Positions 40,783 to 62,009 of a stretch of 64,000 bases of DNA are shown one piece after another. The position numbers and the translations under genes are program-made. Every line of letters begins with the position of its first letter. Position 1 is the first letter of the stretch. The stretch comes from Pseudomonas cavernae (GTDB lineage: Bacteria; Pseudomonadota; Gammaproteobacteria; Pseudomonadales; Pseudomonadaceae): positions 3,844,001-3,908,000 of the forward strand of contig NZ_CP032419.1 of the NCBI RefSeq assembly GCF_003595175.1. Direction: 5' to 3'. The notes beneath the pieces were generated by a model. It ran no database searches and was not told the DNA's origin. It saw only the letters and a program-made list of their open reading frames with translations.

Positions 40783-41811
<1,029 letters not shown>

Positions 41812-46450: not shown

Positions 46451-46498
46451 GGGTATTCCTCAGGGGTACGCAGGCATCAGGTAAAAAGTTCGGTAGTC

Positions 46499-46527
46499 CG
46501 TGCGGCGCCGACTTGGCGCCGCACGGT
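46499..46527. promoter_or_regulatory. Intra-operon stem-loop
   Basis: A 12-bp perfect stem CCGTGCGGCGCC/GGCGCCGCACGG with a 5-base loop, in the 97-bp gap between the SDR and acyl-CoA dehydrogenase genes. On the minus strand a short T-run (CTTTTT) follows only after 13 bases, so full termination is unlikely. Confidence 0.45.
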
Positions 46528-46547
46528 AATGCATCAACAGCCGTGGC

Positions 46548-47384
46548 TTAGAAGTTGCCGCCAGGGCCGCCACCGCAGTAGATGGTCTGACCGGAGCAGT
46601 AGTTGGACTCAGGCAGACAGAACAGCACCACGGCACCGGCGGCTTCTACCGCCGTACCCGGACGACCCAGCGGGATGGTGACGCTGGCGGCGTCGAGGCG
46701 AGCCTTTTGCACGCCGACCTTGATCTCGCGGCCTTCGATGTTGACGGTCTTGCTGTCTTCACCGGCCAGCGCCTGGGTCAGGCGGGTATCGATGATGCCG
46801 AAAGCGACGGCGTTGACGTTGACCTTGTAGCGGCCCCACTCCTTGGCCAGGGCCTTGGTCATGCCGAGGATGCCGGCCTTGGCCGAGGAGTAGTTGGCCT
46901 GACCGGCGTTACCGCCAGCAGCGCCGGAAGAAATGTTGACCACCTTGCGCAGCACTTCGCGGCCTTCGGCGGCGTCTTGCTTGGCCAGCGCGCTGAGGAT
47001 CGGCTGAGCGGCGCGCAGGATGCGGAACGGCGCGGTCAGGTGGCAGCCGATGATCGCGTCCCACTGCTCGTCGGACATCTTCTGGATCACGTTGTCCCAG
47101 GTGAAGCCGGCGTTGTTGACGATGATGTCGACGCTACCGAAGCTGTCCATCGCGGTCTTCAGCAGGCGATCGGCAAAGTCAGCGGCAGTTACGCTGCCGA
47201 CACAGGCCACGGCTTCGCCACCGGCCGCACGGATGTCGGCGACGGTCTGCTCGGCCGGCTCCTGGTCGAGGTCGTTGATGACGATCTTGGCGCCCAGCGC
47301 AGCCAGCTGCAGGGCGACTTCACGGCCGATGCCACGGCCGGAGCCGGTAATCAGGGCGACTTTGCCTTCGAGTTTCTTGGTCAT
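46548..47384 (-). CDS. SDR dehydrogenase, probable 3-hydroxyacyl-CoA dehydrogenase
   Basis: 278 residues: cofactor motif TGSGRGIGREVALQ near residue 14, Asp for NAD in INDLDQEP near 38, NNAGFTWDNVIQKM near 91, catalytic Ser in NISSGAAGG and YSSAKAG. The insertion after NVNAVAFGIIDTRLTQALAG is as in 17-beta-HSD4/FabG-like hydroxyacyl-CoA dehydrogenases of sterol side-chain oxidation. It sits directly downstream of the MaoC pair, matching hydration followed by oxidation. Confidence 0.83.
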   Translation of the reverse strand: MTKKLEGKVALITGSGRGIGREVALQLAALGAKIVINDLDQEPAEQTVADIRAAGGEAVACVGSVTAADFADRLLKTAMDSFGSVDIIVNNAGFTWDNVIQKMSDEQWDAIIGCHLTAPFRILRAAQPILSALAKQDAAEGREVLRKVVNISSGAAGGNAGQANYSSAKAGILGMTKALAKEWGRYKVNVNAVAFGIIDTRLTQALAGEDSKTVNIEGREIKVGVQKARLDAASVTIPLGRPGTAVEAAGAVVLFCLPESNYCSGQTIYCGGGPGGNF

Positions 47385-47402
47385 AGGGGTTCTCCTCTAG
47401 AT

Positions 47403-47807
47403 TCAGTTCAGTGCGACGAGGGCTTCGCCGCTGAGTTTGATTTCGCCCGCCTGGTTGCGGGTGGTGATTTCCAGGCGCACGGTGCCGTTCGCCTCGTCCT
47501 TCTCGACGACCTTGCCGGAGCAGGTGATCTGATCGCCGAGCTGGGTGATGGCGACGAAGCGCACCGAGTAACTGCGCAGGTTTTCCTGCGGCACCCAGTT
47601 GGTGAGCAGGCGCGCGAGGTAACCCATCGACAGCATGCCGTGGGCGAACACGTCGGGCATGCCGGCCTTCTTGGCGAAGTCGATGTCGACGTGGATCGGG
47701 TTGTGGTCGCCCGAGGCGCCGCAGTACAGCGCCAGGGTGGTGCGATTGATCGGTTCGGTGGTGAACGACGGCAGCTCGTAGCCGATTTCGATGTTTGCAA
47801 GATTCAC
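47403..47807 (-). CDS. MaoC-like enoyl-CoA hydratase subunit
   Basis: 134 residues using a GTG start at 47807, preceded by GAGGAG; an upstream ATG start lacks support. The hydratase-2 motif is SGDHNPIHVDIDFAKKAGMPDVFAHGM (catalytic Asp and His) near residue 33. Paired with the adjacent FAS1-like hotdog protein it fits the heteromeric hydratases of the HadAB/ChsH1-ChsH2 type. Confidence 0.87.
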   Translation of the reverse strand: MNLANIEIGYELPSFTTEPINRTTLALYCGASGDHNPIHVDIDFAKKAGMPDVFAHGMLSMGYLARLLTNWVPQENLRSYSVRFVAITQLGDQITCSGKVVEKDEANGTVRLEITTRNQAGEIKLSGEALVALN

Positions 47808-47817
47808 AGTCGGCTCC

Positions 47818-48258
47818 TCAATTACGTACGACGAGACTGTTGCGCAGCTCCGCCACCAGATCGCCTTCGGCATTGGTCACGCGGGTCTCGCGAACCACGA
47901 ACTCGAGGGCGCCGCCCTTCTTATCGTAGATGTCGACGATCTTCGTCTCGAAGCTCAGGCGATCGCCGGCATAGGCCAGCTTGTGGTAGGTGAAGGCCTG
48001 TTCGGCGTGCAGGATCTTGCCGAGGTCGATGTTCAGGCGCTTGAGCACCGAACCCGAACCGCCGGCTTCCATATCCAGACAGAACAGGAAGGTCGGCGGC
48101 ACCGGCAGGCTCTTGTAGCCGGCGGCGCGGGCCGCCTCTACGTCGCTGTAACGCGGATCCTGCTGGCCGGTGGCCTTGGCGAAGAAGCGCAGACGGCCGG
48201 CTTCGACGTCCTGGGTGTGGCTGGAAACCACCGCACCAATATGGCTCTTATCGATCAT
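47818..48258 (-). CDS. MaoC N-terminal (FAS1-like dehydratase) domain protein
   Basis: 146 residues of the FAS1-like MaoC dehydratase family: RLRFFAKATGQQDPRY near residue 23, LPVPPTFLFCLDM near 51, and HAEQAFTYHKLAYAGDRLSFE. It usually forms the non-catalytic or acyl-binding half of a heterodimeric hydratase with a MaoC subunit, here encoded 10 bp downstream. Confidence 0.84.
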   Translation of the reverse strand: MIDKSHIGAVVSSHTQDVEAGRLRFFAKATGQQDPRYSDVEAARAAGYKSLPVPPTFLFCLDMEAGGSGSVLKRLNIDLGKILHAEQAFTYHKLAYAGDRLSFETKIVDIYDKKGGALEFVVRETRVTNAEGDLVAELRNSLVVRN

Positions 48259-48276
48259 TCGATTTCTCCCGTGGGA

Positions 48277-49461
48277 TTACTGACGCTGGTACAGGGTGAC
48301 GACGCAGGCGCCGCCCAGGCCCAGGTTGTGTTGCAGGGCGAAGCGCGCGCCCTCGACCTGGGTGGCGGCGGCGGTGCCGCGCAGTTGGCGGGTCAGCTCG
48401 AAGCACTGCGCCAGGCCGGTGGCGCCCAGCGGGTGGCCCTTGGACAGCAGGCCGCCGGACGGGTTGGTGACTACGCGACCGCCGTAGGTGTTGTCGCCGT
48501 CGAGGATGAACTTCTCGGCGGTGCCTTCCGGGGTCAGCATCAGGCCTTCGTAAGTGATCAGCTCGTTGGCGGTGAAGCAGTCGTGCAGCTCGACCACCTG
48601 GATGTCCTGCGGGCCGACCCCGGCCTGCTCGAACACGCTGACGGCGGCGTTGCGGGTCATGTCGTAGCCGACCACCTTGCGCATGTCGCCTTCGTCGAAG
48701 GTGCTGTTGCGGTCGGTGGTCATCGATTGACCGGCGATCACCACGTCGGTATTCAGGCCGTGTTTCTTGGCGAAAGCCTCGGAGCAGACGATCGCGGCGG
48801 CCGCGCCGCAGGTCGGCGGGCAGCACTGCAGGCGGGTCAGCGGGTCGAAGATCATCGGCGAGGCCATGACTTCCTCGACACTGACGACGTTGCGGAACAC
48901 CGCCAGCGGGTTGCGCGCGGCGTGCTGGCTGGCCTTGGCGCGAATCTTCGCGAAGATTTCACGGCTGATGCCGTATTCCTGCATGTAGGCACGACCAGCA
49001 CCACCGAAGAACTGCGCGGCACGCGGGGCCTGCTCGTCGAAGCCCTGGACCTGGACCATGGTCTTGGCGAAGCGGTCCATCGGGCCGGTGCGGTCGGTCC
49101 AGGCGCCTTTCAGCGCGCCCGGCTGCATCTGCTCGAAGCCCAGCGCGATGGCGCAGTCGATGGCGCCGCTTTCTACCGCCTGGCGGGCGAGGAACAGCGC
49201 GGTGGAGCCGGTGGAGCAGTTGTTGTTGACGTTGATCACCGGGATGCCGGTGAGGCCGACGCCGTAGACCGCCGCCTGGCCGCAGGTGGAGTCGCCGTAG
49301 ACGTAGCCGACGTAAGCCTGCTGCACCAGCGCATAGTCGATACCGGCATCGGCCAGTGCGGCCTTGGCGGCATTGGCACCCATGACGTGGTATTCGTCAC
49401 TCTGGCCTGGTTTGGTGAACTGGATCATGCCGACGCCGGCGACCACAACTTTATTGCTCAT
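48277..49461 (-). CDS. SCPx-type thiolase (lipid-transfer protein family)
   Basis: 394 residues from the ATG at 49461 (GGAGA upstream). The thiolase nucleophile is present in NNNCSTGSTAL near residue 92, with His in ELHDCFTANE and SKGHPLGATG, unlike the paralogue at 36304. It should perform thiolysis of a branched or sterol-type 3-ketoacyl-CoA, releasing acetyl- or propionyl-CoA. It is second in the operon after the acyl-CoA synthetase. Confidence 0.87.
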   Translation of the reverse strand: MSNKVVVAGVGMIQFTKPGQSDEYHVMGANAAKAALADAGIDYALVQQAYVGYVYGDSTCGQAAVYGVGLTGIPVINVNNNCSTGSTALFLARQAVESGAIDCAIALGFEQMQPGALKGAWTDRTGPMDRFAKTMVQVQGFDEQAPRAAQFFGGAGRAYMQEYGISREIFAKIRAKASQHAARNPLAVFRNVVSVEEVMASPMIFDPLTRLQCCPPTCGAAAAIVCSEAFAKKHGLNTDVVIAGQSMTTDRNSTFDEGDMRKVVGYDMTRNAAVSVFEQAGVGPQDIQVVELHDCFTANELITYEGLMLTPEGTAEKFILDGDNTYGGRVVTNPSGGLLSKGHPLGATGLAQCFELTRQLRGTAAATQVEGARFALQHNLGLGGACVVTLYQRQ

Positions 49462-49495
49462 AATTTTCTCCGAGTGATGGATGGTCACCGCACTG

Positions 49496-51052
49496 TCAGT
49501 TGACGGCCCGGGCCTTGTCTTTCCAATAAGGTTCGCGCAGGTCGCGCTTGAGCACCTTGCCGGCGCCGGACAGCGGCAGCGCGGTGGTGAAGGTCACCGA
49601 TTTCGGGCATTTGTAGCCGGCGATGTGCTGCCGGCAGTGCTCGATGATGCCCGCCTCGGCGGCTTCGCAGCCGGGTTTGAGGACTACCACAGCATGCACC
49701 GCCTCGCCCCACTTGTCGCTGGGGATGCCGATCACCGCGCAGGCGGCCACCGCCGGATGGCCGGCCACCGCGCTCTCGACTTCCGCCGAATACACGTTCT
49801 CGCCGCCGGTGACGATCATGTCCTTGATCCGGTCGACGATGAACAGATAACCGTCCTCGTCCATGTAGGCGCCATCGCCGGTGTGCATCCAGCCACCGCG
49901 CAGGGCCTCGGCGGTCTCCTCCGGGCGGTTCCAGTAGCCGAGCATGACGTTGGAGCCACGCACGACGACCTCACCGACCGTGCCGCGCGGCACCTCATTG
50001 TCGTTCTCGTCGACCACCCGCACGGCAATGCCCTGCAACGGCCGACCGGCCGAGCGCAGGAGACCGTTGGCGATGCCTTCGCGACTGTGGTTGCCCGGAC
50101 CGTTGCGGGAGATAGCCGGGGAGGTTTCGGTCATCCCGTAGCCATGCATGAACTCGACCCCCGGCAGCAGCTCCAAGGCACGCTCCAGCACCGGCGCGGC
50201 GATTGGCGAGGCGCCATAGGTCAGGCGCTTGAAGCTGCTGAGGTCGTACTTGGCGAAATCCGGATGCTGGATCATCGCCTGCAGCATGGTCGGCACCAGC
50301 AGAGTGTCCGTCACCCGCTCGCGCTCGATGGTCTGCAGCACATCGATCACGTCGAACATCGGCACGAATACATGCGGATTACCGGCCACCACCTGGGCGA
50401 CCAGGCTCGACATGCAGGCGGTGTGAAACATCGGCGCGACATGCAGTGCGATGCAGTTCTTCTGCAGCGGATGGTCCGCCAGGCTCATGATCGCCGAGGA
50501 CCACAGGTTCAGGTGCGACTGCATTACGCCCTTGGGTCGTCCGGTGGTACCGCCGGTGTACATGATGCCGGCCAGGTCCTGGCCGCCACGGAAGGCGTCG
50601 TCGACCGGCGCGTGCTCGCGGATCAGGTGCTCGTAGGAGAGCATGCCCGCCGGCGCCACGCCGTCACCGACATGCACCAGCAGCGGACGCACCTTGGCGG
50701 TGGAGGCGATGCCTTCGGCCATGGGCAGGAAGTTGTCGTCGACCAGCAGGATGCGGGTGTCGCAGTCGTCCAGCGAATAGACGATCTCCGGCACGCTCCA
50801 ACGAATGTTGACCGGGTTGATCACCCCGCCGCCCCACCAGGTGCCGAGCATGTACTCGAGGAAGCGGTCGGAGTTCAGGCCGAGCATGCCGACCCGATCA
50901 CCCGGCTGCATGCCGAGCCCCTGCAGGGCGCCGGCCAGACGCGACACGCGCTCACCCAGCTCCCGATAAGTGTGCCGGCGCCCACGGAACACGGTCGCCA
51001 GCGCATCGGGGTTCTGCTGCTGCATGCGATGCAGCCCTTGAGTCAGGTACAT
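49496..51052 (-). CDS. AMP-forming acyl-CoA synthetase
   Basis: 518 residues, ANL superfamily: P-loop YTGGTTGRPKGVMQSH near residue 171, YGMTETSP near 300, the hinge region TGDGAYMDEDGYLFIVDRIKDMI near 390 and the C-terminal catalytic Lys in SGAGKVLKRDL. It activates the acid substrate with ATP and CoA, the entry step to the operon. First gene of the 15-gene unit, with a 650-bp control region upstream. Confidence 0.92.
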   Translation of the reverse strand: MYLTQGLHRMQQQNPDALATVFRGRRHTYRELGERVSRLAGALQGLGMQPGDRVGMLGLNSDRFLEYMLGTWWGGGVINPVNIRWSVPEIVYSLDDCDTRILLVDDNFLPMAEGIASTAKVRPLLVHVGDGVAPAGMLSYEHLIREHAPVDDAFRGGQDLAGIMYTGGTTGRPKGVMQSHLNLWSSAIMSLADHPLQKNCIALHVAPMFHTACMSSLVAQVVAGNPHVFVPMFDVIDVLQTIERERVTDTLLVPTMLQAMIQHPDFAKYDLSSFKRLTYGASPIAAPVLERALELLPGVEFMHGYGMTETSPAISRNGPGNHSREGIANGLLRSAGRPLQGIAVRVVDENDNEVPRGTVGEVVVRGSNVMLGYWNRPEETAEALRGGWMHTGDGAYMDEDGYLFIVDRIKDMIVTGGENVYSAEVESAVAGHPAVAACAVIGIPSDKWGEAVHAVVVLKPGCEAAEAGIIEHCRQHIAGYKCPKSVTFTTALPLSGAGKVLKRDLREPYWKDKARAVN

Positions 51053-51154
51053 GGTCGGCCTCTGGGGATGGAGTGTTGTTATGCCGACAGATTAGAAAGG
51101 CCGCTCCGGACTGGCGTCGGTCGAAGGGATGAACCTGACTGCGATCCAGCCGTG

Positions 51155-51166
51155 GTCCAAACGGAC
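51155..51166 (-). promoter_or_regulatory. Putative operator GTCC-N4-GGAC upstream of the catabolic operon
   Basis: GTCCGTTTGGAC on the minus strand, about 103 bp before the synthetase start. It differs by one base from the 8085-8102 site, 43 kb away in the left island. Confidence 0.4.
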
Positions 51167-51238
51167 TACTGCCGAGCAGCACTTGCCTGGGGCCGAGCGC
51201 CGGCCGCAGCCTGGCCTCGCCCGCCGCGGATTGCAGGC

Positions 51239-51348
51239 AAAAAAAGAGGCCACCAGATGACTGGTGGCCTCGATAGAGGTAATCGTTGCTACTGACTCGT
51301 CCCAGGCGTTTTGGGGACCACAGACGAGTCGAGATGATCCATTACCTG
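51239..51348 (-). ncRNA. Candidate small RNA or leader with rho-independent terminator
   Basis: About 110 nt follow the promoter at 51355-51400. On the minus strand the sequence holds an outer stem AGGTAAT/ATTACCT, an inner stem GACTCGTC/GACGAGTC, and ends with an 11-bp terminator hairpin GAGGCCACCAG/CTGGTGGCCTC (51246-51271) followed by seven T. No ORF is apparent. It could be a free-standing sRNA or an attenuated leader of the operon beginning at 51052. Confidence 0.5.
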
Positions 51349-51354
51349 AGCGGT

Positions 51355-51400
51355 ATTATGGAAAATGGGGAATCGTTCGCCATCGGCCGTTCGAACCATT
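51355..51400 (-). promoter_or_regulatory. Activator-type promoter A (box plus -10)
   Basis: On the minus strand a 23-bp box at 51378-51400, centred on GTTCGAAC, lies upstream of a -10 hexamer CATAAT (51355-51360). The hexamer ATGGCG at 51378-51383, 17 bp from the -10, is a poor -35, as expected for an activator-dependent promoter. The same box with identical spacing occurs at 55972-56017. Confidence 0.6.
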
Positions 51401-51700
51401 TTCGCCGCCAATCCCCCCATTTGACCGCCAGGGCCGGCCAGCGGCGCGGCCTGCACCTCCTATTGCGCCGCCCCGCATGATTCGAAAGAACTACTCCCTC
51501 GCACGCCGGGGCATGGCAAGATAGGTGCACGCAAATAAAGTTGCGCCACGGCGCAGCAGATACCGGTCGACTCTAGGAGCGCCCATGCCTGCACCCAGCG
51601 CGCGGATAGTCGCCTTCACCCACGCCCCATACGCCCGCCGGAAGAGCGCCATGCCCAGACTTCCGGCGTTCAATGCCCCTCCAATGCCGCAACCCCTGCC

Positions 51701-54463
51701 ATGAAAGAACCGATCATGCACAGTTCGCCGAGCCCGTCGGGTTTCTCCTCCGCTGAATCGATCTCGCGCATCCTGCCGGCCAAGCTGGCTCCGCCGATGT
51801 CCGCGCCCAGCCATCTGCAGCGGCAGAAGCTGCTCGACCTGATGATCGAGACCGGTCCGGCGCGGCTGGTGCTGATCCGCGCCGCCGCCGGCTTCGGCAA
51901 GAGCACCCTGATGCAGCAGTACTACGCCCACTGCCTGGCCACGGGGCGCGCCGCCATCTGGTTCAACCTGGATGTCGCCGACAACGACCTGCAGCGCTTC
52001 GTCAAGCACCTCAACGCCGGCTTCGACCGTCTGAGCGAAGGCCAGCAGGCGCCCCAGCCGGTGCACCCAGAACAGCACAGCCTGTCCGAGCTGAGCCTCG
52101 ACCTGCTGGATCGCATCGCCGCCACGGAAACCCCGTTCTCGCTGCTGCTCGACGAGTTCGAGGTGATCCAGAATCCGCAACTGCTCGACTTCGTCCGGCA
52201 GCTGGTGGAAAACCTGCCACCCAATGGGCGCCTGGTAATCACCTCGCGTAGCGCCCCGGACATCGGCCTGGGCCGCATCCGTGCCCGCGGCCAACTGGTG
52301 GAAATCGGCCCCAGCGCGCTGCGCTTCTCGCTCGACGAGGCCACCCGCTTCATCCGTGAAAAGCATGCGCTGCAGCTGCGCGACAACGAGATCGCCACCC
52401 TGCACCGCTGCACCGAGGGCTGGGCGGCGGCGATCTTCCTCGCCACCCTGTCGCTGCACGACCGCAGCGACCACGCCGCCTTCGTGTCCTCGTTCTCCGG
52501 CTCCAACCTGGAGCTGGCCGAGTACCTGGCCGAGGACATCCTCGCCCGGCAGAGCGAGGAATGCCGCTTGTTCCTGATGGAAACCAGCGTACTCAGCCAG
52601 TTCTGCGCGCCGCTGTGCGACGCCGTCACCGGTCGCCAGGACAGTCAGGCGATGATCGAGTACCTGGAGAAGGCCAACCTGTTCCTCTTCCCCCTGGACA
52701 ACGACCGCAGCTGGTTCCGCTATCACAGCCTGTTCGCCAGCTTCCTCAGCGACGCGCTGAACCGCCAGCACCCCGGTCGCGCCCAGCACCTGCACCGCGC
52801 CGCCGCGAGCTGGTACCTGTCGGTCGACCGCCCGGTGCCGGCCATCGAAGCCCTGCTGCGCGCCGGGGCCAGCGCCGAAGCGGCGGTGCAGATCGCCGCC
52901 CATGTCGACGAACTGAAGGATGCCGGACGCGCGCGCCTGCTGCTGCGCTGGCTGGACCAAATCCCCTCGGCGGAGCTCGACGCGCATCCCAAACTGCTGG
53001 TCGCCTACGCCTGGACCCTGGTCCTGAGCCGCCGCTTCCAGGACGCTGTGCCGATCCTGCATCGCCTGGAGGCCTACGAAACCGACGGCGAACGTCAGGG
53101 CTATGCGCTGGAAGCGGAAACCGTGCGCTGCCTGTTGCTGGTGATGACCGAGCGGGTCGAGGAATGCTGCGCGGCCGGCCTCAAGCAGCTCGATCGCCTG
53201 CCACCGGACGAGCTGTTCCAGTACGGCGTGGTCACCAACTCGCTGGCCTTCTCGATGATTTCCACCAGCCGCTACGACGAGGCCCGCAGCCTGCTGTCGC
53301 GCGCCCTGCAGCGCCCGGCCTACCGGCGCTCGGCGTATATGCGCGGGCTGGCCGGCAGCATGGAGGGCATCATCGACCTGGTCCAAGGCCGCCTGGGCAA
53401 TGCCCTGGCTCGCCTGCAGACCGCCGCCGAGCGCCACTGGAACGACACCGCCGGCGAGACCCTGGGCGGCCGACCGACCATAGTGGTGATCCTCTCCCAG
53501 GCGCTGTACGAAGCCGACGAGCTGGGCGAAACCGAGCAGGCGCTGCTCGACATCCTGCCCTATGCCCGGGACAACAGTACCCCCGATCAGTTGATCGTCA
53601 GCCATGTGCTGCTGGCGCGCCTGGCCCTCCTGCGCGGCGACCGGGACCAGTGGCTGCGTTACCTCGCCGAACTGGAGCAACTCGGCCAGCAGGTCGGCTC
53701 GTCACGGGTGGTCTGCACCTCCTGGCTGGAGCGCGCCCGCGTTGCCACCCTGGAGGGCCGCCTGGACGCCGCCGAGCAGGCCCTGCGCTCGGCCGAGCTG
53801 ATGAGCGACTGGGCACGCCCCGGCCTGACCCTGTATGCCAGCGACGTCGACCTGCCCTCGATCGTGCGCTGGCGTCTGCGCATCGCCCAGGGCGACTGCG
53901 CCGAACCGGCCGCGGCCCTGGCGGAGGCGATAGTCGCCGCGCAAGGCAGCCAGCACCATCGCCGGGCGCTGAAGCTGCGCCTGCTGCGGGCCATGGCCCT
54001 GGCCGGCCTACACCAGGACGGCGCCGCCTTCGAGGAACTGACCCTGGCCTTGCGCTTTGCCAGCCACGAAGGCTTCCTGCGCACCTTCCTCGACGAAGGC
54101 GCGCCGATGGCCGCACTACTCAAGCGCTGGGCCGCCGCCCATCAGGGCAAGCACCAGCCGAGCGGTATCGACGCGCAGTTCCTCGCCACCCTGCTCGAAC
54201 GCATTGGCAGCGACCGCGCGGCGGCCAGCACCGCGGCACCCGGCCCCGGTAGCCATGGCGAGCCGCTGGAAGCGCTGACCGCGCGGGAGATCCAGGTGAT
54301 CAGGTTGCTGGCCGAAGGGCACCGCAACCGGGTGATTGCCGAGAAAATGTTCCTCTCCGAGTTCACGGTGAAGTCGCACCTGCGCAACATCAACGCCAAA
54401 CTCGGCGCCCAGGGCCGCACCGAGGCGGTGGCGATCGCACGCAGCCGTGGGTTGATCGATTGA
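51701..54463 (+). CDS. MalT/AlkS-type LAL transcriptional regulator
   Basis: Up to 920 residues; the ATG at 51701 is assumed, with 51716 also possible. Walker A RAAAGFGKST lies near residue 60, followed by an STAND-type ATPase domain, a long TPR-like helical region, and a C-terminal LuxR HTH (LTAREIQVIRLLAEGHRNRV, then FTVKSHLRNINAKLG) to residue 920. LAL proteins are ligand- and ATP-dependent activators. It is divergent from the 15-gene operon and between two copies of a conserved promoter box, so it is the best candidate to bind them. Confidence 0.88.
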   Translation: MKEPIMHSSPSPSGFSSAESISRILPAKLAPPMSAPSHLQRQKLLDLMIETGPARLVLIRAAAGFGKSTLMQQYYAHCLATGRAAIWFNLDVADNDLQRFVKHLNAGFDRLSEGQQAPQPVHPEQHSLSELSLDLLDRIAATETPFSLLLDEFEVIQNPQLLDFVRQLVENLPPNGRLVITSRSAPDIGLGRIRARGQLVEIGPSALRFSLDEATRFIREKHALQLRDNEIATLHRCTEGWAAAIFLATLSLHDRSDHAAFVSSFSGSNLELAEYLAEDILARQSEECRLFLMETSVLSQFCAPLCDAVTGRQDSQAMIEYLEKANLFLFPLDNDRSWFRYHSLFASFLSDALNRQHPGRAQHLHRAAASWYLSVDRPVPAIEALLRAGASAEAAVQIAAHVDELKDAGRARLLLRWLDQIPSAELDAHPKLLVAYAWTLVLSRRFQDAVPILHRLEAYETDGERQGYALEAETVRCLLLVMTERVEECCAAGLKQLDRLPPDELFQYGVVTNSLAFSMISTSRYDEARSLLSRALQRPAYRRSAYMRGLAGSMEGIIDLVQGRLGNALARLQTAAERHWNDTAGETLGGRPTIVVILSQALYEADELGETEQALLDILPYARDNSTPDQLIVSHVLLARLALLRGDRDQWLRYLAELEQLGQQVGSSRVVCTSWLERARVATLEGRLDAAEQALRSAELMSDWARPGLTLYASDVDLPSIVRWRLRIAQGDCAEPAAALAEAIVAAQGSQHHRRALKLRLLRAMALAGLHQDGAAFEELTLALRFASHEGFLRTFLDEGAPMAALLKRWAAAHQGKHQPSGIDAQFLATLLERIGSDRAAASTAAPGPGSHGEPLEALTAREIQVIRLLAEGHRNRVIAEKMFLSEFTVKSHLRNINAKLGAQGRTEAVAIARSRGLID

Positions 54464-54536
54464 GGTTGAGACAGTGACCGGCGTTAGGATTGCGCGCCGC
54501 CCTTCAGCGAACCGCCAGACAACTGGAGCTCAAAAA

Positions 54537-54574
54537 AATCCGGCCATGCCCTTGCAAGCATGGCCGGATTTTTT
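54537..54574 (+). terminator. Rho-independent terminator
   Basis: Stem AATCCGGCCATGC/GCATGGCCGGATT with an 8-base loop, A-tract before and T-tract after, 74 bp downstream of the LAL regulator stop. It could work in both directions. Confidence 0.88.
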
Positions 54575-54588
54575 ATGCCGGCAATCTA

Positions 54589-54755
54589 GAACCAGTTCAC
54601 GATCTTTTCCACAGACGGCGGAGTTGCTGCTCTTGCCCCCCTCCCTGGCTTCATAAAAGAAAGCCGGGAGAGGGCTGGGGAGAGGGCTGAGTTGGCTGAC
54701 TGACCCCCTCTCCCCCGCCCCCTAGAGGGGCTCTTCCGAGATCGTAGACCGGTTC
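54589..54755. mobile_element. Fold-back element at the racemase stop codon
   Basis: Terminal repeats GAACCAGTTCACGATCTT and, on the complement, GAACCGGTCTACGATCTC resemble those of the 140-bp elements. The interior contains CTCTCCC/GGGAGAG-type repeats instead of the TTTACGAG hairpin. The next three bases, TTA at 54756-54758, are the racemase stop codon. Confidence 0.6.
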
Positions 54756-55886
54756 TTAGGCGATCGCGCCGGCCTCGCGCAGGGTGGCGATTTCCGCCTC
54801 GCCCAGGCCCAGTTGCTGCAGCACTTCCACCGTATGTTCGCCGGTCTTCGGCACCGCGCCGGCCTCGGCCGGGGTGCGGCTCAGCCGCGGCGCCGGCGCC
54901 GGATGCACCACGCCGCCGGTCTCGATGAAAATGTTGCGCGCCTGCATGTGCGGGTGCTGCAGCGCCTCGCTGAAGTCCAGTACCGGCGCGATGCAGGCGT
55001 CGCTGCCTTCCAGCAACTCACTCCATTCGTCGCGGGTGCGGGTGAGGAACAGCGCCTCCAGCTTCTCGTGCATCGCCGGCCAATCCTGGCGGTTCCACTG
55101 CGCGGCGAAGAGCGGGTCGTCGATCTCGCACAGCTCGAGGAACAGCTTGTAGAACTGCGGCTCGATCGGCCCCATGGAGATGAACTTGCCATCGGCGCAG
55201 GTATAGCAGCGGTAGAACGGCGCGCCGCCGTCGAGCATGTTGTCGGCGCGCTGTGGCGACCACTTGCCACGCGCCAGGCTGTCGAAATAGGTGCTGGCCA
55301 GTAGCGCGGCGCCGTCACAGATCGCCGCGTCGACCACCTGACCCTTGCCGGACTTCTGCGCCTCGAGCACCGCGCAGACGATGCCGAAGGCCAGCATCAT
55401 CGCGCCGCCGCCGAGGTCGCCGACCAGGTGCAGCGGCGGAGTCGGCGCACGGTCGCGGGAGCCCATGGCGTTCAGCGCGCCGGTCAGGCCGATGTAGTTG
55501 AGGTCGTGGCCGGCGGCCGGCGCCAACGGGCCGCTCTGTCCCCAGCCGGTCATGCGCCCGTAGACCAGGCGCGGGTTGCGCGCCTGGCAGACATCCGGAC
55601 CGAGGCCGAGACGCTCCATGACGCCGGGACGGTTGCCCTCGATCAGCACGTCGGCATCGTCGATCAGGCGCAGCAGCAGTTCGGTGACGCCCGGCTTCTT
55701 CATGTCGATGGCGATGGTGCGCCGGCCGCGGTCGACCACCGTGCCGCCACCACCGAGCGCGCCCGGCACCAGGCGATCGACCCGCGTCACCTCGGCGCCC
55801 ATGTCCGCCAGCATCATGGCGCAGAACGGTCCCGGCCCGATGCCGGCGATCTCCACAACCTTAAGTCCCTGCAAGGGTCCGGCCAT
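54756..55886 (-). CDS. Alpha-methylacyl-CoA racemase (CaiB/BaiF family III)
   Basis: 376 residues from the ATG at 55886; a GTG one codon earlier is possible. AMACR signature segments are present: [19 protein letters not shown] with the catalytic His, and [12 protein letters not shown] with the catalytic Asp, plus [11 protein letters not shown] near the expected Glu. The enzyme interconverts 2R/2S methyl-branched acyl-CoAs, needed before a stereospecific acyl-CoA dehydrogenase acts on sterol or isoprenoid side chains. It fits the catabolic operon better than the itaconate genes beside it. A family-III CoA-transferase is the alternative. Confidence 0.8.
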
Positions 55887-55971
55887 CACTCACTCTCCTA
55901 CCTAATGGATTGGAAACGTTGCGGCCGCGCGCAGCCTTGGGGGCAGCTCGCGGCCGGACAGATTGAGGGAA

Positions 55972-56017
55972 ATTATGAAAAGCGGATGCGCAGGCGCCAT
56001 CGGTCGTTCGAACCATT
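55972..56017 (-). promoter_or_regulatory. Activator-type promoter B upstream of the racemase
   Basis: Box at 55995-56017 with core GTTCGAAC (56006-56013), then 17 bp to a minus-strand CATAAT (55972-55977), about 86 bp upstream of the racemase start. The box matches promoter A at 22 of 23 positions without gaps and has the same spacing to the -10. Confidence 0.6.
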
Positions 56018-56091
56018 CCGCCGGCGGGGTCGCGACGCCTCAAGCGGTCATGGCGACGCCGCGGCGCATGGCGCTCCACGGCGACAGCGGC

Positions 56092-56907
56092 TTATTCGCC
56101 GGCCGCCGCCAGCAGACGGCGGGCGCGCCCGAGTACCGGGGCATCGACCATCTGGCCGTCGATCTTGAAGGCCGCCGCCCCAGTGGCTGCGCCTGCGACC
56201 ACACGGCGCGCCCAGGCCAGTTCCTCGGCGCTCGGCGCCAGCGCGGCATGCACCACCGCGACCTGCTTGGGATGGATGCACAGCGCCCCGACCAGGCCCA
56301 TGTCGCGGCCGCGGCGGATGGTGGCGGCCAACCCCGGCTCGTCGTCGAAGGCGGGGTAGACGGTGTCCAGCGGCGGCTGCAGGTCGTTGACCCGCGAATG
56401 CAGCAGCAGGGCGAAACGGGTCTGGTCGTAGATGACGCTCGCCGCTTCGCTGCCACTGCTCAAGCCGAGGTCGAGGCCGAGATCGAGGCCTCCATAGGTG
56501 AGGCGCTGCACGCCTTCGCAGGCGGCGATCTCGCCCAGCGCCAGCAGGCCGGCGGCGCTTTCGATCAGCGGCCAGACCGGCTTGCCAGTCGCCGCCGCAT
56601 CGCGCACCTCGACCGCACTCTCGGCCTTGGGCAACAGCAAACCGACCACGCCGGCCTGCTCGCGGCAGAACGCCAGATCAGCGGCATGCTCGCCATGCTC
56701 GGCGGCGTTGACCCGCACCCAGACGCGCACGTCCGGGTTGGCGGCGAGAAAGGCGGCCAGGTTGAGGCGCGCCTGGGCCTTGAGGTCGGCCTCGACGGCG
56801 TCCTCGAAATCGACGATGACCGCGTCGGCACCGACCGCCAGGGCCTTGGCGAAACGCTCAGGACGGCTACCAGGGACGAACAGCGCCGAGCGGATGTAGA
56901 GAGTCAT
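56092..56907 (-). CDS. ccl: Citramalyl-CoA lyase (CitE-like)
   Basis: A 271-residue HpcH/HpaI/CitE barrel: RSALFVPGSRPERFAKAL near residue 6, VIVDFEDAVEADLK near 29 with metal-ligand acidic residues, VWVRVNA with the substrate Arg, LPKAESA, and PLIESAAGLL. It splits (S)-citramalyl-CoA to pyruvate and acetyl-CoA, the last step of itaconate degradation. Assignment rests on gene order with Ict and Ich homologues as in P. aeruginosa PA0878-PA0883. Two repeat elements separate it from ict. Confidence 0.85.
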   Translation of the reverse strand: MTLYIRSALFVPGSRPERFAKALAVGADAVIVDFEDAVEADLKAQARLNLAAFLAANPDVRVWVRVNAAEHGEHAADLAFCREQAGVVGLLLPKAESAVEVRDAAATGKPVWPLIESAAGLLALGEIAACEGVQRLTYGGLDLGLDLGLSSGSEAASVIYDQTRFALLLHSRVNDLQPPLDTVYPAFDDEPGLAATIRRGRDMGLVGALCIHPKQVAVVHAALAPSAEELAWARRVVAGAATGAAAFKIDGQMVDAPVLGRARRLLAAAGE

Positions 56908-56938
56908 GGGGCTTCCTTAGTAGTTCGACGGACCGATA

Positions 56939-57103
56939 GAACCTGTTCAATGTCTCGTGAGCCCAGCACCTGTCATTGCCCAGAGGTGGAAAATGCTTCG
57001 CAGTTTTCCACCCTACGCGAACGTTCAGACTTTGTAGGGTGAATAACGCTTTGCTTATCCACCATTACGCCGACACAGAGCGGTCGTGACCTTGAACAGG
57101 CTC
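56939..57103. mobile_element. Fold-back element between ccl and ict (first of a tandem pair)
   Basis: Termini GAACCTGTTCAATGTCTCG and, on the complement, GAGCCTGTTCAAGG. It shares about 77 bp of core with the element at 16442-16601 (one base change, a GTGGATAAC/GTGAATAAC difference). It is joined to the next element by a single TTA (57104-57106). Confidence 0.6.
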
Positions 57104-57106
57104 TTA

Positions 57107-57255
57107 GGGCCTGCTCATTAGCGGTCCAAGGACAAGAGGTGGAATCGCCTTCTCCCTTTTGGGGAGAGGGCTAGCAAGGGAAGGATGATCGACCCTCTCC
57201 CCTACCCCTCTCCGCTAAATGGGAGAAGGGAGATTCCGAAACCAGGAACAGGCGC
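57107..57255. mobile_element. Fold-back element at the ict stop codon (second of a tandem pair)
   Basis: Termini GGGCCTGCTC and, on the complement, GCGCCTGTTCC. The interior has CTCTCCC-type palindromes like those at 19147-19172 and in 54589-54755. The following TCA (57256-57258) is the ict stop codon. Confidence 0.5.
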
Positions 57256-58449
57256 TCAGACCGCACCATTATCATGCAAGCGTTGGATATCCGCCGAGCT
57301 GTAGCCAAGTTCGCTGAGCAGGCTGTCGGTATGTTCGCCGAGGCTGGGCACCGCGTCCATGCGCGGGCTGAACGCCGCGTTGCGCCCCGGCGGCAGCATG
57401 GCTGGCAGCTTGCCGACCGGGCTGTCGATCTCGCGCCAGCTGTCGCGTGCCTTGAGCTGCGGATGCCGCCACAGGTCGTGCATGTCGTTGACCTGGGCGT
57501 TGCCGATCTGCGCCGTTTCCAGGCGCTCGATCACCTGGGCGGCGCCGAGCCCGGCGAAGGCCGCAACGATCGCCGCGCGCAGCGCCTCGCGGTTGGCGAC
57601 GCGCAACGTGGTGGTGGTGAAGCGCGGATCGCTGCGCAGGTCCGGCTGCTGCAGCACGATCTCGCAGAACGCCGCCCATTCGCGCTCGTTCTGCACGGCG
57701 AGCATCACCGTGCCGCCGTCGCCGGCCGGGAACGGCCCGTAGGGATAGATGGTGGCGTGGGCGGCGCCGGCGCGCGGCGGCGGGGTGGCGCCCTCGAAGG
57801 CGTAATACATCGGGAAGCTCATCCACTCGGCCATGCTCTCCAGCATCGACACGTCGATGCGGCTGCCGACCCCGGTCTTGCCGCGCAGCAGCAGCGCCGA
57901 GAGGATGCCGGTGTAGGCGTACATGCCGGCGGAGATGTCGGCGATCGAGCAGCCGGCCTTGGCCATCTGCTCATCACCCGGACCACCGGTGACCGAGAGG
58001 AAGCCGCTCTCGCTCTGGATCAGCAGGTCGTAGGCCTTCTTGTCCTGATAGGGGCCGCCCTCGCCGTAGCCGGAGATGTCGCAGACGATCAGGCGCGGGA
58101 AGCGCTCGTGCAGCACCTCGAACGACAGGCCCATGCGCGCGGCGGCGCCCGGCGCGAGGTTCTGCACCAGCACGTCGGCCTGGCCGAGCAGTTGCTCCAG
58201 CACGGCCTGCGCCTCGTCCTGCTTGAGATCCAGGCTCAGGCTTTCCTTGGAACGGTTGGTCCAGACGAAGTGCGAGGCCATGCCACGCACGCGTTCGTCG
58301 TAGCCACGGGCGAAGTCGCCGACGCCAGGGCGCTCGACCTTGATCACGCGGGCACCCATGTCGGCCAATTGGCGGGTACAGAACGGCGCGGCGATGGCGT
58401 GTTCGAGACTGATGACGGTGATGCCGTCGAGGGGGCGCAGTTGTGTCAT
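57256..58449 (-). CDS. ict: Itaconate CoA-transferase (family III)
   Basis: 397 residues from the ATG at 58449; an upstream start reads through repeat-derived sequence and is rejected. CaiB/BaiF family: LEHAIAAPFCTRQLADMGA at the N-terminus, DLKQDEA, and KAYDLLIQSESGFLS with the expected catalytic Asp near residue 171. It transfers CoA, probably from succinyl-CoA, to itaconate. The gene order with MmgE/PrpD, acyl-CoA dehydrogenase and hydratase matches P. aeruginosa PA0882. Confidence 0.87.
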   Translation of the reverse strand: MTQLRPLDGITVISLEHAIAAPFCTRQLADMGARVIKVERPGVGDFARGYDERVRGMASHFVWTNRSKESLSLDLKQDEAQAVLEQLLGQADVLVQNLAPGAAARMGLSFEVLHERFPRLIVCDISGYGEGGPYQDKKAYDLLIQSESGFLSVTGGPGDEQMAKAGCSIADISAGMYAYTGILSALLLRGKTGVGSRIDVSMLESMAEWMSFPMYYAFEGATPPPRAGAAHATIYPYGPFPAGDGGTVMLAVQNEREWAAFCEIVLQQPDLRSDPRFTTTTLRVANREALRAAIVAAFAGLGAAQVIERLETAQIGNAQVNDMHDLWRHPQLKARDSWREIDSPVGKLPAMLPPGRNAAFSPRMDAVPSLGEHTDSLLSELGYSSADIQRLHDNGAV

Positions 58450-58477
58450 CTCTTGTTCCAATCCTGTGTAGAAAGCC

Positions 58478-58519
58478 CCCTCACCCCAGCCATCTCCCGA
58501 CGGGAGAGGGGCGGTGAGG
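58478..58519. repeat. Short palindromic repeat between ict and the MmgE/PrpD gene
   Basis: Nested inverted repeats CCTCACC/GGTGAGG and ATCTCCCG/CGGGAGA, the same C-rich type found inside lhr and in the elements at 54589 and 57107. Confidence 0.55.
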
Positions 58520-58540
58520 AGCAAGCCGATGGGCCGGGGG

Positions 58541-59893
58541 TCAGGCAATCGCCTGAACGTCAGCCAGCTTGTGCAACTGCCAGACCTTGCCGATCAGCTC
58601 GCTTGCCTGTGCGGCGGTACGGGCGCCGGAGAAGGCCACCAGACGCTGGAACTTGTCTTCCAGCTCCGGCCGGCTCAGGGTGTTGCCCGGATCGCCCTTG
58701 GGCTCGTCGATGGCCGACGTCAGTTGGCGGCCATCGGTGGTCTGCACGTTGATACGACCCAGCCAGCGCTGCGGGTAGGCGCCATCCACTTCTGGGTCCA
58801 GCACCATCGAGACTTTCTCGCGGAACGCCGACACGCGCGGGTCGCTCAGGGAGAACTGCTCGAACTCGGTCAGCCCGGCCTTGCCATACACGGCGATCAG
58901 GCCAAGCACGGTGCCCATGGAGAACTTCGCCTGGTGTACCGACTGCGGCACGACCACGCGGCCGAGCACGTCGATCGCGCCCTGGTGTACGCGAGTGGTG
59001 ACGCTTTCGATCTGCTCGAAGCCCAGCTTCTCGCGCTGCATCAGCGCCAGCAGCGCATCGCCGGCCGGGTGGGTGTGACGGCAGGAGGCGTGGAACTTGA
59101 AGGAAGTTTCGGCCAGCGCCCAGCGGGTGCCCAGACGGTCGACCAGCCACTTGGCGTCGGCATCCTTCGACATCCCGGCGGCCATGCCCTGCTCGCCTTC
59201 GAGAATGTTCTTCGCGCCCGTCAGTCCATCGGCAGTCAGGTAGGCGGCCAGCAGACCATCGGCGGCGGCCTTGGCGGTGTGCAACTGCTTGGAGTCGGCC
59301 GCGTCCCGCAGGAACTCCCACAGACCGGCAGCCTGGGTGCCGGCACTGCCCAGGCAGTTGACGAACTGCTCGGTGTCGAAGTCCAGCAGCTTGGCCACGC
59401 TCACCGCAGCGGCCAGGGTGCCGACCGTCGCGGTGGTGTGGAAGATGCGGTAATGCGAACGGCCGAGGAACTCACCGATACGGATACCCGCTTCGTAGCC
59501 GGCGACGCAGGCAACGACCAGTTCGCGACCGGACTTGCCGAGATCCTGCGCCGCCGCCAGAGCGGCCGGGAAGACCACGGTGGCCGGGTGCAGCACCGAG
59601 CTGTTGTGCAGGTCGTCCTGCTCGACCAGGTGCGAGCTGGCGGCGTTCACCAGGGCGGCGAAATACGCCGAGCTGCGCTGGCCGTTGACGATGATCTGGC
59701 AGCGGCCATCGGCCGGCCCCATCTTCTGCGCATAGCGCTCGAACAGCGGGATCGGGTGTGCGCCCTGGCTGGCCAGGGCAGAGCCCAGCCAGTCGAGGAA
59801 CAGGTCTTCGGTGCGCTCGACCACCGCCTGCGGCAGGTCTTCGTAACGCAGGCCGGCGAGGAATTCGGCCAGGGCGCGGGTGTTGTTGCTCAT
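58541..59893 (-). CDS. MmgE/PrpD family protein of the itaconate operon
   Basis: 450 residues, full length for the family (2-methylcitrate dehydratase/cis-aconitate decarboxylase-like). Motifs: LFLDWLGSALASQGAHPI near residue 29, HLVEQDDLHNSSVLHPATVV near 88, and KFHASCRHTHPAGDALL near 262. Its P. aeruginosa counterpart is PA0881; its reaction in itaconate metabolism is not firmly established, perhaps hydrating or isomerising related C5 diacids. Co-directional and tightly spaced (10 bp) with the acyl-CoA dehydrogenase gene. Confidence 0.87.
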   Translation of the reverse strand: MSNNTRALAEFLAGLRYEDLPQAVVERTEDLFLDWLGSALASQGAHPIPLFERYAQKMGPADGRCQIIVNGQRSSAYFAALVNAASSHLVEQDDLHNSSVLHPATVVFPAALAAAQDLGKSGRELVVACVAGYEAGIRIGEFLGRSHYRIFHTTATVGTLAAAVSVAKLLDFDTEQFVNCLGSAGTQAAGLWEFLRDAADSKQLHTAKAAADGLLAAYLTADGLTGAKNILEGEQGMAAGMSKDADAKWLVDRLGTRWALAETSFKFHASCRHTHPAGDALLALMQREKLGFEQIESVTTRVHQGAIDVLGRVVVPQSVHQAKFSMGTVLGLIAVYGKAGLTEFEQFSLSDPRVSAFREKVSMVLDPEVDGAYPQRWLGRINVQTTDGRQLTSAIDEPKGDPGNTLSRPELEDKFQRLVAFSGARTAAQASELIGKVWQLHKLADVQAIA

Positions 59894-59903
59894 GGCGGAC
59901 TCC

Positions 59904-61064
59904 TCAGAACGAACGCGGCAGGTCGAGGATGTGCTCGGCCACGTAGGACAGGATCAGGTTGGTGGAAATCGGCGCCACCTGGTACAGGCGGGTCTCGCGG
60001 AACTTGCGCTCGACGTCGTATTCGCAGGCGAAGCCGAAGCCGCCGTGGGTCTGCAGGGCTGCGTTGGCCGCCTCCCAGGACGCCTTGGCCGCCAGGTACT
60101 TGGCCATGTTGGCGCTAGCCCCGGCGTTCAGTCCGGCGTCGTATTCCTGGCAGGCTTTCCAGCGCATCAGATCGGCGGCTTCGACTTCGATATGCGCCTC
60201 GGCGATGGGGAACTGCACGCCCTGGTTCTGGCCGATCGGCCGGCCGAACACCACGCGATCGCGGGCATAGGCACTGGCCTTCTCGATGAACCAGCGGCCG
60301 TCGCCGATGCACTCGGCGGCGATCAGCGTGCGCTCGGCGTTGAGGCCGTCGAGGATGTACTTGAAGCCCTTGCCTTCCTCGCCGATCAGGCTGTCGGCGG
60401 GAATTTCCAGGTTGTCGAAGAACAGCTCGTTGGTCTCGTGGTTGACCATGTTGGCGATCGGCTGCACGGTCAGGCCGTTGCCGATGGCCTGGCGCAGGTC
60501 GACCAGGAAGATCGACATGCCCTCGGATTTCTTCTTCACCTCCGCCAGCGGCGTGGTGCGTGCCAGGAGGATCATCAGGTCGGAATGCTGGATGCGCGAG
60601 ATCCACACCTTCTGGCCGTTGATCACGTACTTGTCGCCCTGGCGCACGGCCGTGGTCTTGATCTTGGTGGTGTCGGTGCCGGTAGTTGGCTCGGTCACAC
60701 CCATCGACTGCAGGCGCAGCTCGCCGCTGGCCAGCTTCGGCAGGTAATAGCTCTTCTGCGCCTCACTGCCGTTCCGCAGCAGGGTAAACATGTTGTACAT
60801 CTGCCCGTGCACGGTGCCGGAGTTACCGCCGCAGCGGTTAACTTCCTCGAGGATCACCGAGGCCTCGGCCAGGCCCAGGCCAGAGCCGCCGTACTCCTCC
60901 GGGATCATCGCCGACAGCCAGCCGGCCTGGGTCATGGCGTCGACAAAGGCTTCCGGGAAGCCCTTCTCCTCGTCGATCTTGCGCCAGTAGGCGGAGTCGA
61001 ACTCGGCGCACAGGGCGCGGACGCCTTCGCGGATGTGTTGGTATTGGTCGGTAGTGGCGATCAT
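59904..61064 (-). CDS. Acyl-CoA dehydrogenase of the itaconate operon
   Basis: 386 residues from the ATG at 61064 (GAGG 8 nt upstream); a GTG at 61082 is possible. Motifs: MGVTEPTTGTDTTKIKTTA near residue 120, VWISRIQHSDLMILLART, and LQTHGGFGFACEYDVERKFRE. The FAD and substrate loops are intact. It corresponds to PA0879. It may act on methylsuccinyl- or a related CoA ester that feeds into the pathway. Confidence 0.88.
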   Translation of the reverse strand: MIATTDQYQHIREGVRALCAEFDSAYWRKIDEEKGFPEAFVDAMTQAGWLSAMIPEEYGGSGLGLAEASVILEEVNRCGGNSGTVHGQMYNMFTLLRNGSEAQKSYYLPKLASGELRLQSMGVTEPTTGTDTTKIKTTAVRQGDKYVINGQKVWISRIQHSDLMILLARTTPLAEVKKKSEGMSIFLVDLRQAIGNGLTVQPIANMVNHETNELFFDNLEIPADSLIGEEGKGFKYILDGLNAERTLIAAECIGDGRWFIEKASAYARDRVVFGRPIGQNQGVQFPIAEAHIEVEAADLMRWKACQEYDAGLNAGASANMAKYLAAKASWEAANAALQTHGGFGFACEYDVERKFRETRLYQVAPISTNLILSYVAEHILDLPRSF

Positions 61065-61122
61065 CTCTTGATCCTCGCTCACGACGGGTGCGGCCCGCCG
61101 TCTTGATATGAAAAAAGAAGGG

Positions 61123-61950
61123 TTAGTCGAAGTGCACTTCGCCGATCTGGGCGATACCGCTGTCGTTGCCAGCCCACAGCTCGACGACGCCCGCCCGCAC
61201 GATGCGCCCGCTGACCTGGAACGGCTGCGGGGCGATCAGCGGGCGCTGGCCGCGGTGGCTGAAGCGGCGCACGCGCGCGTCCGGGTTGGCGCGGCAGAAC
61301 GCGCGCAGCATCAGGGTGGCGATCAGCGGGCCGTGCACCACCAGCCCGGTGTAGCCCTCGGCTTCGGTGACATAGGGCCAGTCGTAGTGGATACGGTGGC
61401 CGTTGAAGGTCACCGCCGAATAGCGAAACAGCAGGGTCGGCGTCGGCACCACCGTTTCGTTCCAGTCGCCCGCCGCGGCTGGTTCGCCACCACCGAGCTT
61501 GGGTGGAGTCGGCTCGCGGTAGACGATGTCCTGGCGCTCGCGCAGGGTCAGACGGCCGTCCTGGACATACTCGTGACGCAAGCTGACGAACAGCAGCGCG
61601 CCGGTGCGCCCGCTCTTCTCCTCGATCTTCTCGATGCGCGTCTGGCGCACAGTCCGGCCACCCACGCGCAGCGGCTCGAGGAATTCCACCTCGCTGCCGG
61701 CCCACATGCGATTGCGATTGTCCGCCGCCGGCAGGAAGCCGCCGCGTGCCGGATGGCCGTCGGCGCCGAGGCCGGATTCGGGCACCGGCTCCTGGAAGAA
61801 CGCCCAGTGCCACAGCGGCGGCAACGCCTGACCGACCGCCGGGGACGCTTCGTCGAAGGTGGTGGCGATGCGCCGGACCAGGGTGGCGCACAGCTCGTCG
61901 TGGGTTTCTTCGGTGCGCCCCAGCCAGGCGGAATAGTCGGCTTCGCTCAT
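61123..61950 (-). CDS. ich: Itaconyl-CoA hydratase / mesaconyl-C4-CoA hydratase
   Basis: 275 residues from the ATG at 61950. FAS1-like hotdog protein: the region LPPLWHWAFFQEPVPESGLGADGHP near residue 46, WAGSEVEFLEPL, and a C-terminal MaoC motif FNGHRIHYDWPYVTEAEGYTGLVVHGP with catalytic Asp and His. It hydrates itaconyl-CoA to citramalyl-CoA. First gene of the operon, divergent from the LysR regulator. Confidence 0.87.
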   Translation of the reverse strand: MSEADYSAWLGRTEETHDELCATLVRRIATTFDEASPAVGQALPPLWHWAFFQEPVPESGLGADGHPARGGFLPAADNRNRMWAGSEVEFLEPLRVGGRTVRQTRIEKIEEKSGRTGALLFVSLRHEYVQDGRLTLRERQDIVYREPTPPKLGGGEPAAAGDWNETVVPTPTLLFRYSAVTFNGHRIHYDWPYVTEAEGYTGLVVHGPLIATLMLRAFCRANPDARVRRFSHRGQRPLIAPQPFQVSGRIVRAGVVELWAGNDSGIAQIGEVHFD

Positions 61951-62009
61951 GGACTCAACTCTTCTCGCAAAATTGCCTAAACAGAGGATGGAGAAGCTCT
62001 TGTGTTTTG

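Follow-up and report, generated by a model that had tools for sequence, protein, structure and literature searches.

Two minus-strand promoters in a 64,000-nucleotide stretch of the Pseudomonas cavernae genome (the window; bases 3844001-3908000 of a one-contig, 4.95-Mb genome) share an almost identical box, and the gene for a LAL (MalT-type) regulator is located between them. Judging from sequence comparisons, we consider it likely that the shared box serves this regulator as its operator; the regulator would switch on genes of the surrounding cluster by class-II activation. One of the promoters precedes a CoA-transferase family III gene of the alpha-methylacyl-CoA racemase type (54756-55889, minus strand; Pfam CoA_transf_3, 5e-80), for which we keep the putative name racemase from an earlier, sequence-only reading of this DNA. 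The other precedes a candidate small RNA (sRNA) upstream of an operon led by an acyl-CoA synthetase (ACS) gene.

Direct reading of the minus strand shows that AATGGTTCGAACGGCCGATGGCG (box 1) and AATGGTTCGAACGACCGATGGCG (box 2) are identical at 22 of 23 positions, with one difference; together they read AATGGTTCGAAC-G[G/A]-CCGATGGCG, at 51378-51400 and 55995-56017. At both promoters GTTCGAAC is followed after 28 nucleotides (nt) by a CATAAT -10 element (51355-51360 and 55972-55977, minus strand). Both the match and the spacing had been described in the sequence-only reading, and both hold. The flanks of the two boxes are unlike each other, so the match is not part of a long duplication. GTTCGAAC is found in the window only at these two places, with 0.52 occurrences expected and 10 of 100 shuffles holding at least two; the 8-mer alone is therefore weak proof, the case being carried by the 23-mer together with the spacing. 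A tRNA T-loop as the source of GTTCGAAC was considered and rejected, ARAGORN finding no tRNA in 51000-56500. Searching the whole genome for GGTTCGAACGNCCGATGGCG with up to three mismatches gave eight matches, these two with none and six with three, and the reversed pattern used as a control gave seven. The 20-base core had no further match in the genome with up to two mismatches. The search of the complete genome that had been suggested earlier thus places the strict box at these two positions only. The paired promoters are confirmed, though incomplete as an observation, as a motif scan shows more sites in the cluster.

The regulator gene (51701-54463, plus strand) encodes an N-terminal NTPase, a MalT-type TPR region and a C-terminal LuxR-type helix-turn-helix. 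The MalT-like TPR region was matched by Pfam TPR_MalT (1e-28, 101 bits, cut-off 45) and the LuxR-type DNA-binding domain by Pfam GerE at residues 858-913 (3.5e-17, 62.2 bits, cut-off 23.5); AAA_16 gave 24.8 bits, under its cut-off of 32.6. The closest solved structure is that of the MalT N-terminal part, 8bob (residues 24-435, 1.6e-47), and A.AGFGK.T, invariant across five aligned LALs, marks an N-terminal nucleotide-binding domain with Walker motifs. The protein is 75, 60, 60 and 49% identical to the four relatives with which it was aligned, and four of the five proteins have nearly the same helix-turn-helix.

The operator motif was learned from relatives of this regulator, of which 73 were collected by a scan of named genomes. 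For the motif we drew on 38 of these loci (identity of at least 46%); a further 12 served as controls, and 23 stayed unused. A de novo search of the regions upstream of LAL-family genes (30 non-redundant ones, including the window) returned GttCnTTCGAACGATT with a log-likelihood of 135, compared with 39.5 and 37.1 for two shuffled controls. After removal of the window and of a paralogue from the same genome, the remaining 28 of the 38 loci, which are non-redundant and form the training set of the hold-out motif, gave CgTnGTTCTTTCGAACnATT, a 20-bp motif with the dyad TNGTTC-N4-GAACNA. The strict pattern was poor for relatives (matches at or below control level in three genomes combined), and this position-specific motif was used instead. 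Scanned over the window as a position weight matrix (PWM), the foreign motif ranks the racemase-promoter box first (55998-56017, minus strand; 21.8) and the 20-bp operator of the sRNA promoter, which reads AATGGTTCGAACGGCCGATG, second (51381-51400, minus strand; 20.3). For scores of at least 20, a first-order Markov model predicts 0.013 occurrences in 64 kb. A third box, upstream of the LAL gene itself (51476-51495, plus strand; 18.0), is followed 20 nt further on by GCAAGATA, and counterparts of it precede the LAL genes of relatives. Because foreign LAL-adjacent regions yield the box without the window and place both boxes at the top of the ranking, the regulator encoded between the promoters, already proposed as the binder on its position, is the probable binder.

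Sites scoring at least 13 were found upstream in 25 of the 38 LAL-family loci; the identities are 46-74%, and the loci largely overlap with the training set and include many Paraburkholderia near-repeats. The 12 distant LAL controls reached at most 10.5. In those portions of the open-access literature that were available to us no description of this operator was found, which does not establish the operator as unpublished.

Furthermore, the regulator and the box occur together. In a sample of 249 congeneric genomes, LAL was found at E 1e-180 only in G000, G015 and G027 (P. insulae). All ten racemase upstream regions were scored, and they gave 21.8, 16.2 and 26.8 in the three LAL-bearing genomes and at most 6.7 in the seven LAL-free ones; this presence and absence links the box to the regulator. 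Scoring of ACS upstream regions covered 12 of 31 ACS places, and four of the 12 had a site of at least 10, all in LAL-bearing genomes. For G151, G102 and G225 the scoring took in both ends of the fetched locus.

Several observations weigh against assigning the box to LAL. No site above 6.7 was seen in the other eight of the 12 ACS upstream regions, five of which are in LAL-free genomes; the three in LAL-bearing genomes (one in the genome studied here, two in P. insulae) lie closely behind another gene. Upstream sites of at least 13 are lacking in 13 of the 38 LAL-family loci (L079, L086, L087, L092, L094, L095, L100, L101, L103, L104, L110, L111 and L118), among them that of the P. insulae LAL, the closest relative at 75% identity, where the nearest box is about 1.3 kb away. 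The degenerate pattern is not specific genome-wide (34 matches against 18 in the control), about one score of at least 20 is expected by chance per 4.95-Mb genome, and a site of 21.3 at 2547888 in the same genome lacks a clear -10 at the 20-nt distance. Of the 47 sites of at least 15 in the fetched loci, some are intragenic, for example one of 20.0 within the Peristeroidobacter LAL gene. Finally, 19 matches of LAL type were found in the genome, a number that includes fragments of a single protein, and a paralogue could bind some of the sites.

This last point also favours a different assignment, in which the box would be the operator of another LuxR-type helix-turn-helix regulator, for example a LAL paralogue or one encoded next to KshA, and the position of LAL would be coincidental. 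The KshA region contains a box scoring 16.7, with GATACT at a distance of 21 nt, which lies about 190 nt upstream of an SDR-like open reading frame (ORF) and near a regulator-like ORF; another regulator could use it. In addition, PMC8399759 mentions TeiR-like regulators of P. stutzeri Chol1 and, as an unpublished result, that one of them influences when cholate degradation sets in. We regard this assignment as unlikely, as the motif was obtained from LAL-adjacent regions of three genera and is not found beside the 12 distant LALs, and as racemase boxes are confined to LAL-bearing genomes (three of three, against none of seven). The KshA region (L229:9391-19866, corresponding to G000:C1 about 3744390-3754865) comprises KshA, SDR-like ORFs and the regulator-like ORF at 13239-14615, which had no Pfam match at 1e-6.

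The spacing between the box and the -10 points to how LAL would act. Around TTCGAA the 20-bp motif lacks symmetry, and it can be placed in either orientation. In other promoters, namely those of the G015 racemase and GMC genes and of the racemase paralogue in the genome studied here, the spacing is 24 nt; since the box is inverted, 28 and 24 nt represent one geometry, in which 20 nt separate the end of the 20-mer from the -10. Among 89 non-redundant boxes scoring at least 9 upstream of 411 gene starts (collapsed from 114 at 75% identity; a box between divergent genes may count once per direction), TANNNT is placed at an offset of 20 nt in 12 cases, 21 nt in five and 22 nt in one, and each other offset from 0 to 45 holds between none and three. 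Offsets 20 and 21 together hold 17 of the 30 TANNNT matches over the 46 offsets, with a rough Poisson P of 7e-16 per offset.

Transcription is predicted to start at about 51348 from the sRNA promoter and about 55965 from the racemase promoter, and by calculation from such predicted starts the dyad is centred at about -42.5. The -35 hexamers are poor, as had been noticed before; with spacers of 15-19 the best matches to TTGACA among three promoters reach three of six positions. A dyad near -41 to -43 at a fixed distance from the -10, together with a poor -35, characterises class II promoters. The combination of box, weak -35 and preferred spacing thus supports class-II activation geometry, and it lends support to the sequence-only reading, in which the promoters were taken to be activator-dependent.

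MalT-type proteins are mostly activators. This and the class-II geometry make it very unlikely that LAL acts at these sites as a repressor, or as activator and repressor in one. The box upstream of the LAL gene, 20-22 nt from which there may be a -10, would allow positive as well as negative autoregulation, and repression would suit a weak candidate box before a RipC-like gene (56919-56938, minus strand; PWM 13.1), which is located 11 nt before the start codon with no space for a downstream -10. A LAL-type negative regulator is also described in Streptomyces (PMC9628970).

We propose the following mechanism for activation by LAL. As suggested by its family, LAL would bind a ligand derived from the pathway together with ATP, as in MalT. 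The activated protein would then bind the 16-bp dyad TNGTTC-N4-GAACNA centred at about -42 and substitute for the missing -35 contact, bringing RNA polymerase to a -10 element 20-21 nt away from the 20-bp footprint. In this way LAL would turn on the racemase gene and, via tandem boxes at about -78 and -42, the beta-oxidation operon led by ACS. Further targets would be a distant GMC oxidoreductase gene, its own gene and, probably, a sulfatase-like gene. In this genome a terminated RNA of 110 nt would also be turned on, filling the slot that the GMC gene occupies in two relatives. If true, this would provide a named activator with an operator, a promoter geometry and a list of targets, and the motif would predict co-regulated genes across three genera.

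Among the closest known systems is MalT, the LAL/STAND maltose activator of E. coli, with which the regulator shares the NTPase, the MalT-type TPR and the C-terminal LuxR-type helix-turn-helix. The two differ in their operators, as MalT boxes are short asymmetric repeats and the operator found here is a 16-bp dyad with a 4-bp spacer at about -42. AlkS is a LAL-family activator of the Pseudomonas alkane catabolic operon; it resembles the regulator proposed here in activating a catabolic operon, but controls different genes. TeiR/TesR, the testosterone regulator of Comamonas, is likewise a LuxR-type regulator, of proteobacterial steroid degradation, according to PMC6678751 and PMC8399759; it is described there as a membrane protein of polar location that has kinase activity, which by description sets it apart from the LAL architecture. 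The actinobacterial KstR1/KstR2 are TetR-type repressors, unlike LAL. According to PMC8399759, they control genes for the sterol side chain and rings and have no homologues in bile-acid-degrading Proteobacteria.

The sequence-only reading proposed a regulon of two promoters. This has to be extended, as tandem boxes are found before the ACS operon and further candidate sites upstream of the LAL gene, a sulfatase-like gene and a GMC gene at 1.159 Mb. Nor is the set limited to this organism, since as an operator family it is also present in relatives of three genera.

At the ACS operon promoter a distal box (51151-51170, minus strand; PWM 12.6) is located 36 bp from a proximal one (51115-51134, minus strand; PWM 9.8), likewise in relatives, and the -10 TAATCT (51089-51094, minus strand) lies exactly 20 nt from the proximal box. 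About eight scores of at least 9 are expected per 64 kb, and the proximal box therefore rests on its position, which is the same in all 12 ACS-type promoters compared. These come from ten LAL-synteny loci, including the window, and two paralogues in the genome studied here; they represent Pseudomonas, Cupriavidus and Paraburkholderia, near-identical Cupriavidus promoters included. All 12 have the box with TANNNT at 20-21 nt, the proximal scores going down to 6.2, and 11 have a second box 35-36 bp upstream, P. jinjuensis being the exception. Boxes are also found upstream of the racemase paralogue and the two ACS paralogues in the genome.

The sulfatase-like gene (33326-35053) is probably among the genes switched on. 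It is preceded by a candidate box (35091-35110, minus strand) with a PWM score of 11.3, where 2.8 scores of at least 11 are expected per 64 kb, and GATACT follows 22 nt further. P. insulae has a comparable box after an AraC gene, again with GATACT 22 nt further, and there the next gene is an acyl-CoA dehydrogenase. The arylsulfatase model gave 92 bits for this gene, with a cut-off of 481. Homologues of 75-80% identity were seen in the fetched LAL loci of P. jinjuensis (L106), P. putida 17522 (L092) and P. azerbaijanoccidentalis (L094).

A box scoring 23.1, oriented like the sRNA box and with AATAAT at a distance of 20 nt, lies upstream of the GMC oxidoreductase gene at 1.159 Mb. At this site (L188:1499-1518, minus-strand side) the leader of the gene measures 314 nt from box to start codon, compared with 93 and 96 nt in two relatives.

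The candidate sRNA (51239-51348, minus strand) is about 110 nt long and is made up of hairpins followed by an intrinsic terminator, whose 11-bp stem (51246-51271) precedes seven U. Its fold of -50.4 kcal/mol has a z-score of -6.4. It thus combines a promoter of its own, a structured body and a terminator with a U tail, promoter and terminator being predicted. Rfam contained no family matching the RNA, only five chance-level microRNA matches located off it, and a known RNA family was therefore rejected; plasmid relatives of 51225-51415 were rejected too, no match being found. No homologue was detected in 397 other congeneric genomes, where nine short matches hit the 3' third (the terminator end) at E 0.003-0.01. 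Among the 22 cluster start regions examined for pairing, the best duplexes reached only the 5% level of 100 shuffles, as by chance. Neither conservation nor target base pairing, the marks of a trans-acting sRNA, was thus found in these searches, and the reading as a new regulatory RNA, though possible, lacks support. A 17-codon open frame is present within the RNA (51289-51342, minus strand), without a good ribosome-binding site or other support.

The simplest reading of the sRNA, from the gene orders, is that the promoter has outlived a GMC gene that moved. In G015 and at the second P. insulae locus, a GMC gene is located between LAL and ACS behind the same type of promoter, at the slot of the sRNA; in P. 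nitroreducens it is found between racemase and ACS, and in P. jinjuensis LAL, ACS and thiolase follow each other without it. The window contains no GMC gene. That the RNA is such a relic, with a terminator that merely stops an orphan transcript, has a slightly better than even chance in our estimation; as it concerns the RNA only, it is compatible with LAL as activator. The GMC gene at 1.159 Mb behind its like-oriented box and the failure to find an sRNA homologue are in line with a relic. The strong fold and the intact promoter and terminator speak against it, and so does a blastn comparison of 51053-51400 with three GMC loci, in which the best match (26 nt) was the ACS box region and which led us to reject a GMC remnant downstream of the promoter.

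Instead of an sRNA, the RNA could also be a leader that attenuates the ACS operon conditionally, as it lies upstream of ACS on the same strand and ends in a terminator. We find this unlikely: the ACS operon has its own tandem-box promoter of the conserved type downstream of that terminator, and the minimum-energy fold contained no antiterminator, no systematic search for one being made. The same promoter modifies the sequence-only reading, in which the box promoter drives a candidate sRNA upstream of the operon; the candidate sRNA with its predicted promoter and terminator stands, and the operon has a promoter of its own.

The beta-oxidation-type gene block (36304-51052, minus strand), recognised from NCBIfam scans and synteny with LAL loci, encodes ACS, an LTP-type thiolase, two MaoC proteins (a HadA/HadB-like pair), an SDR protein, acyl-CoA dehydrogenases including a pimeloyl-CoA-dehydrogenase-like pair, a crotonase, aldehyde and alcohol dehydrogenases, a FabK-like protein and a thiolase. 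Among the matches listed for 20 scanned proteins no steroid-specific cut-off was reached (IpdE2 139.8, cut-off 450), and ACS gave 294.8 bits with the steroid-24-oyl-CoA synthetase model, below its cut-off of 750. The same genome has a KshA_C match of 222.8 bits (cut-off 23.3), indicating a ring oxygenase, and KshA adjoins MMPL, YCF48-like and DUF1302 genes, which we take to be typical of proteobacterial steroid clusters.

KshA_C was scanned for in the genomes of 28 of the 38 loci, the other ten sharing genomes with these. Of the 28 LAL-family genomes, 18 have a strong match (E<1e-50), three a weak one above the cut-off and seven none; with ten lacking a strong match, the cluster is not confined to KshA-bearing genomes. 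In the 249-genome sample, strong KshA_C accompanies 8 of 13 ACS matches, compared with 39 of 249 genomes overall (Fisher 1.3e-4, or 5.2e-4 without the genome studied here), and the KshA_C matches may include other Rieske oxygenases. A steroid or isoprenoid side chain is a plausible substrate on these comparisons. The steroid side-chain pathway proposed earlier gains plausibility from KshA in the genome, and is weakened by strong KshA_C in only 18 of the 28 genomes and by the ACS score below the model cut-off.

The conserved operator-promoter module is real and most likely that of a MalT-type activator. It is tempting, though rather doubtful as a whole, to go further and see in LAL the master activator that has been missing for the breakdown of isoprenoid/steroid side chains in Pseudomonas, Cupriavidus and Paraburkholderia. 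A portable module, made up of the dyad at -42 and an optional second box 36 bp upstream, would then have been copied to the racemase, ACS, GMC and sulfatase genes, and a new sRNA, captured in this lineage and co-induced with the pathway, would tune it.

On the other side of the racemase promoter, 56092-62199 comprises an itaconate/citramalate-type block with a RipC-like lyase (below cut-off), a CoA transferase III, MmgE/PrpD and an acyl-CoA dehydrogenase; the ORF at 61123-62199 was taken for MaoC-like and had no NCBIfam match, and a LysR gene (61949-63001) adjoins the block. A second LuxR-type (LAL-like) regulator gene (63264-63992) runs past the right end of the window. In Pseudomonas sp. R37 (L078) the itaconate/citramalate-type block likewise follows the LAL gene, as it does in P. 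nitroreducens (L082) up to the point where the contig stops.

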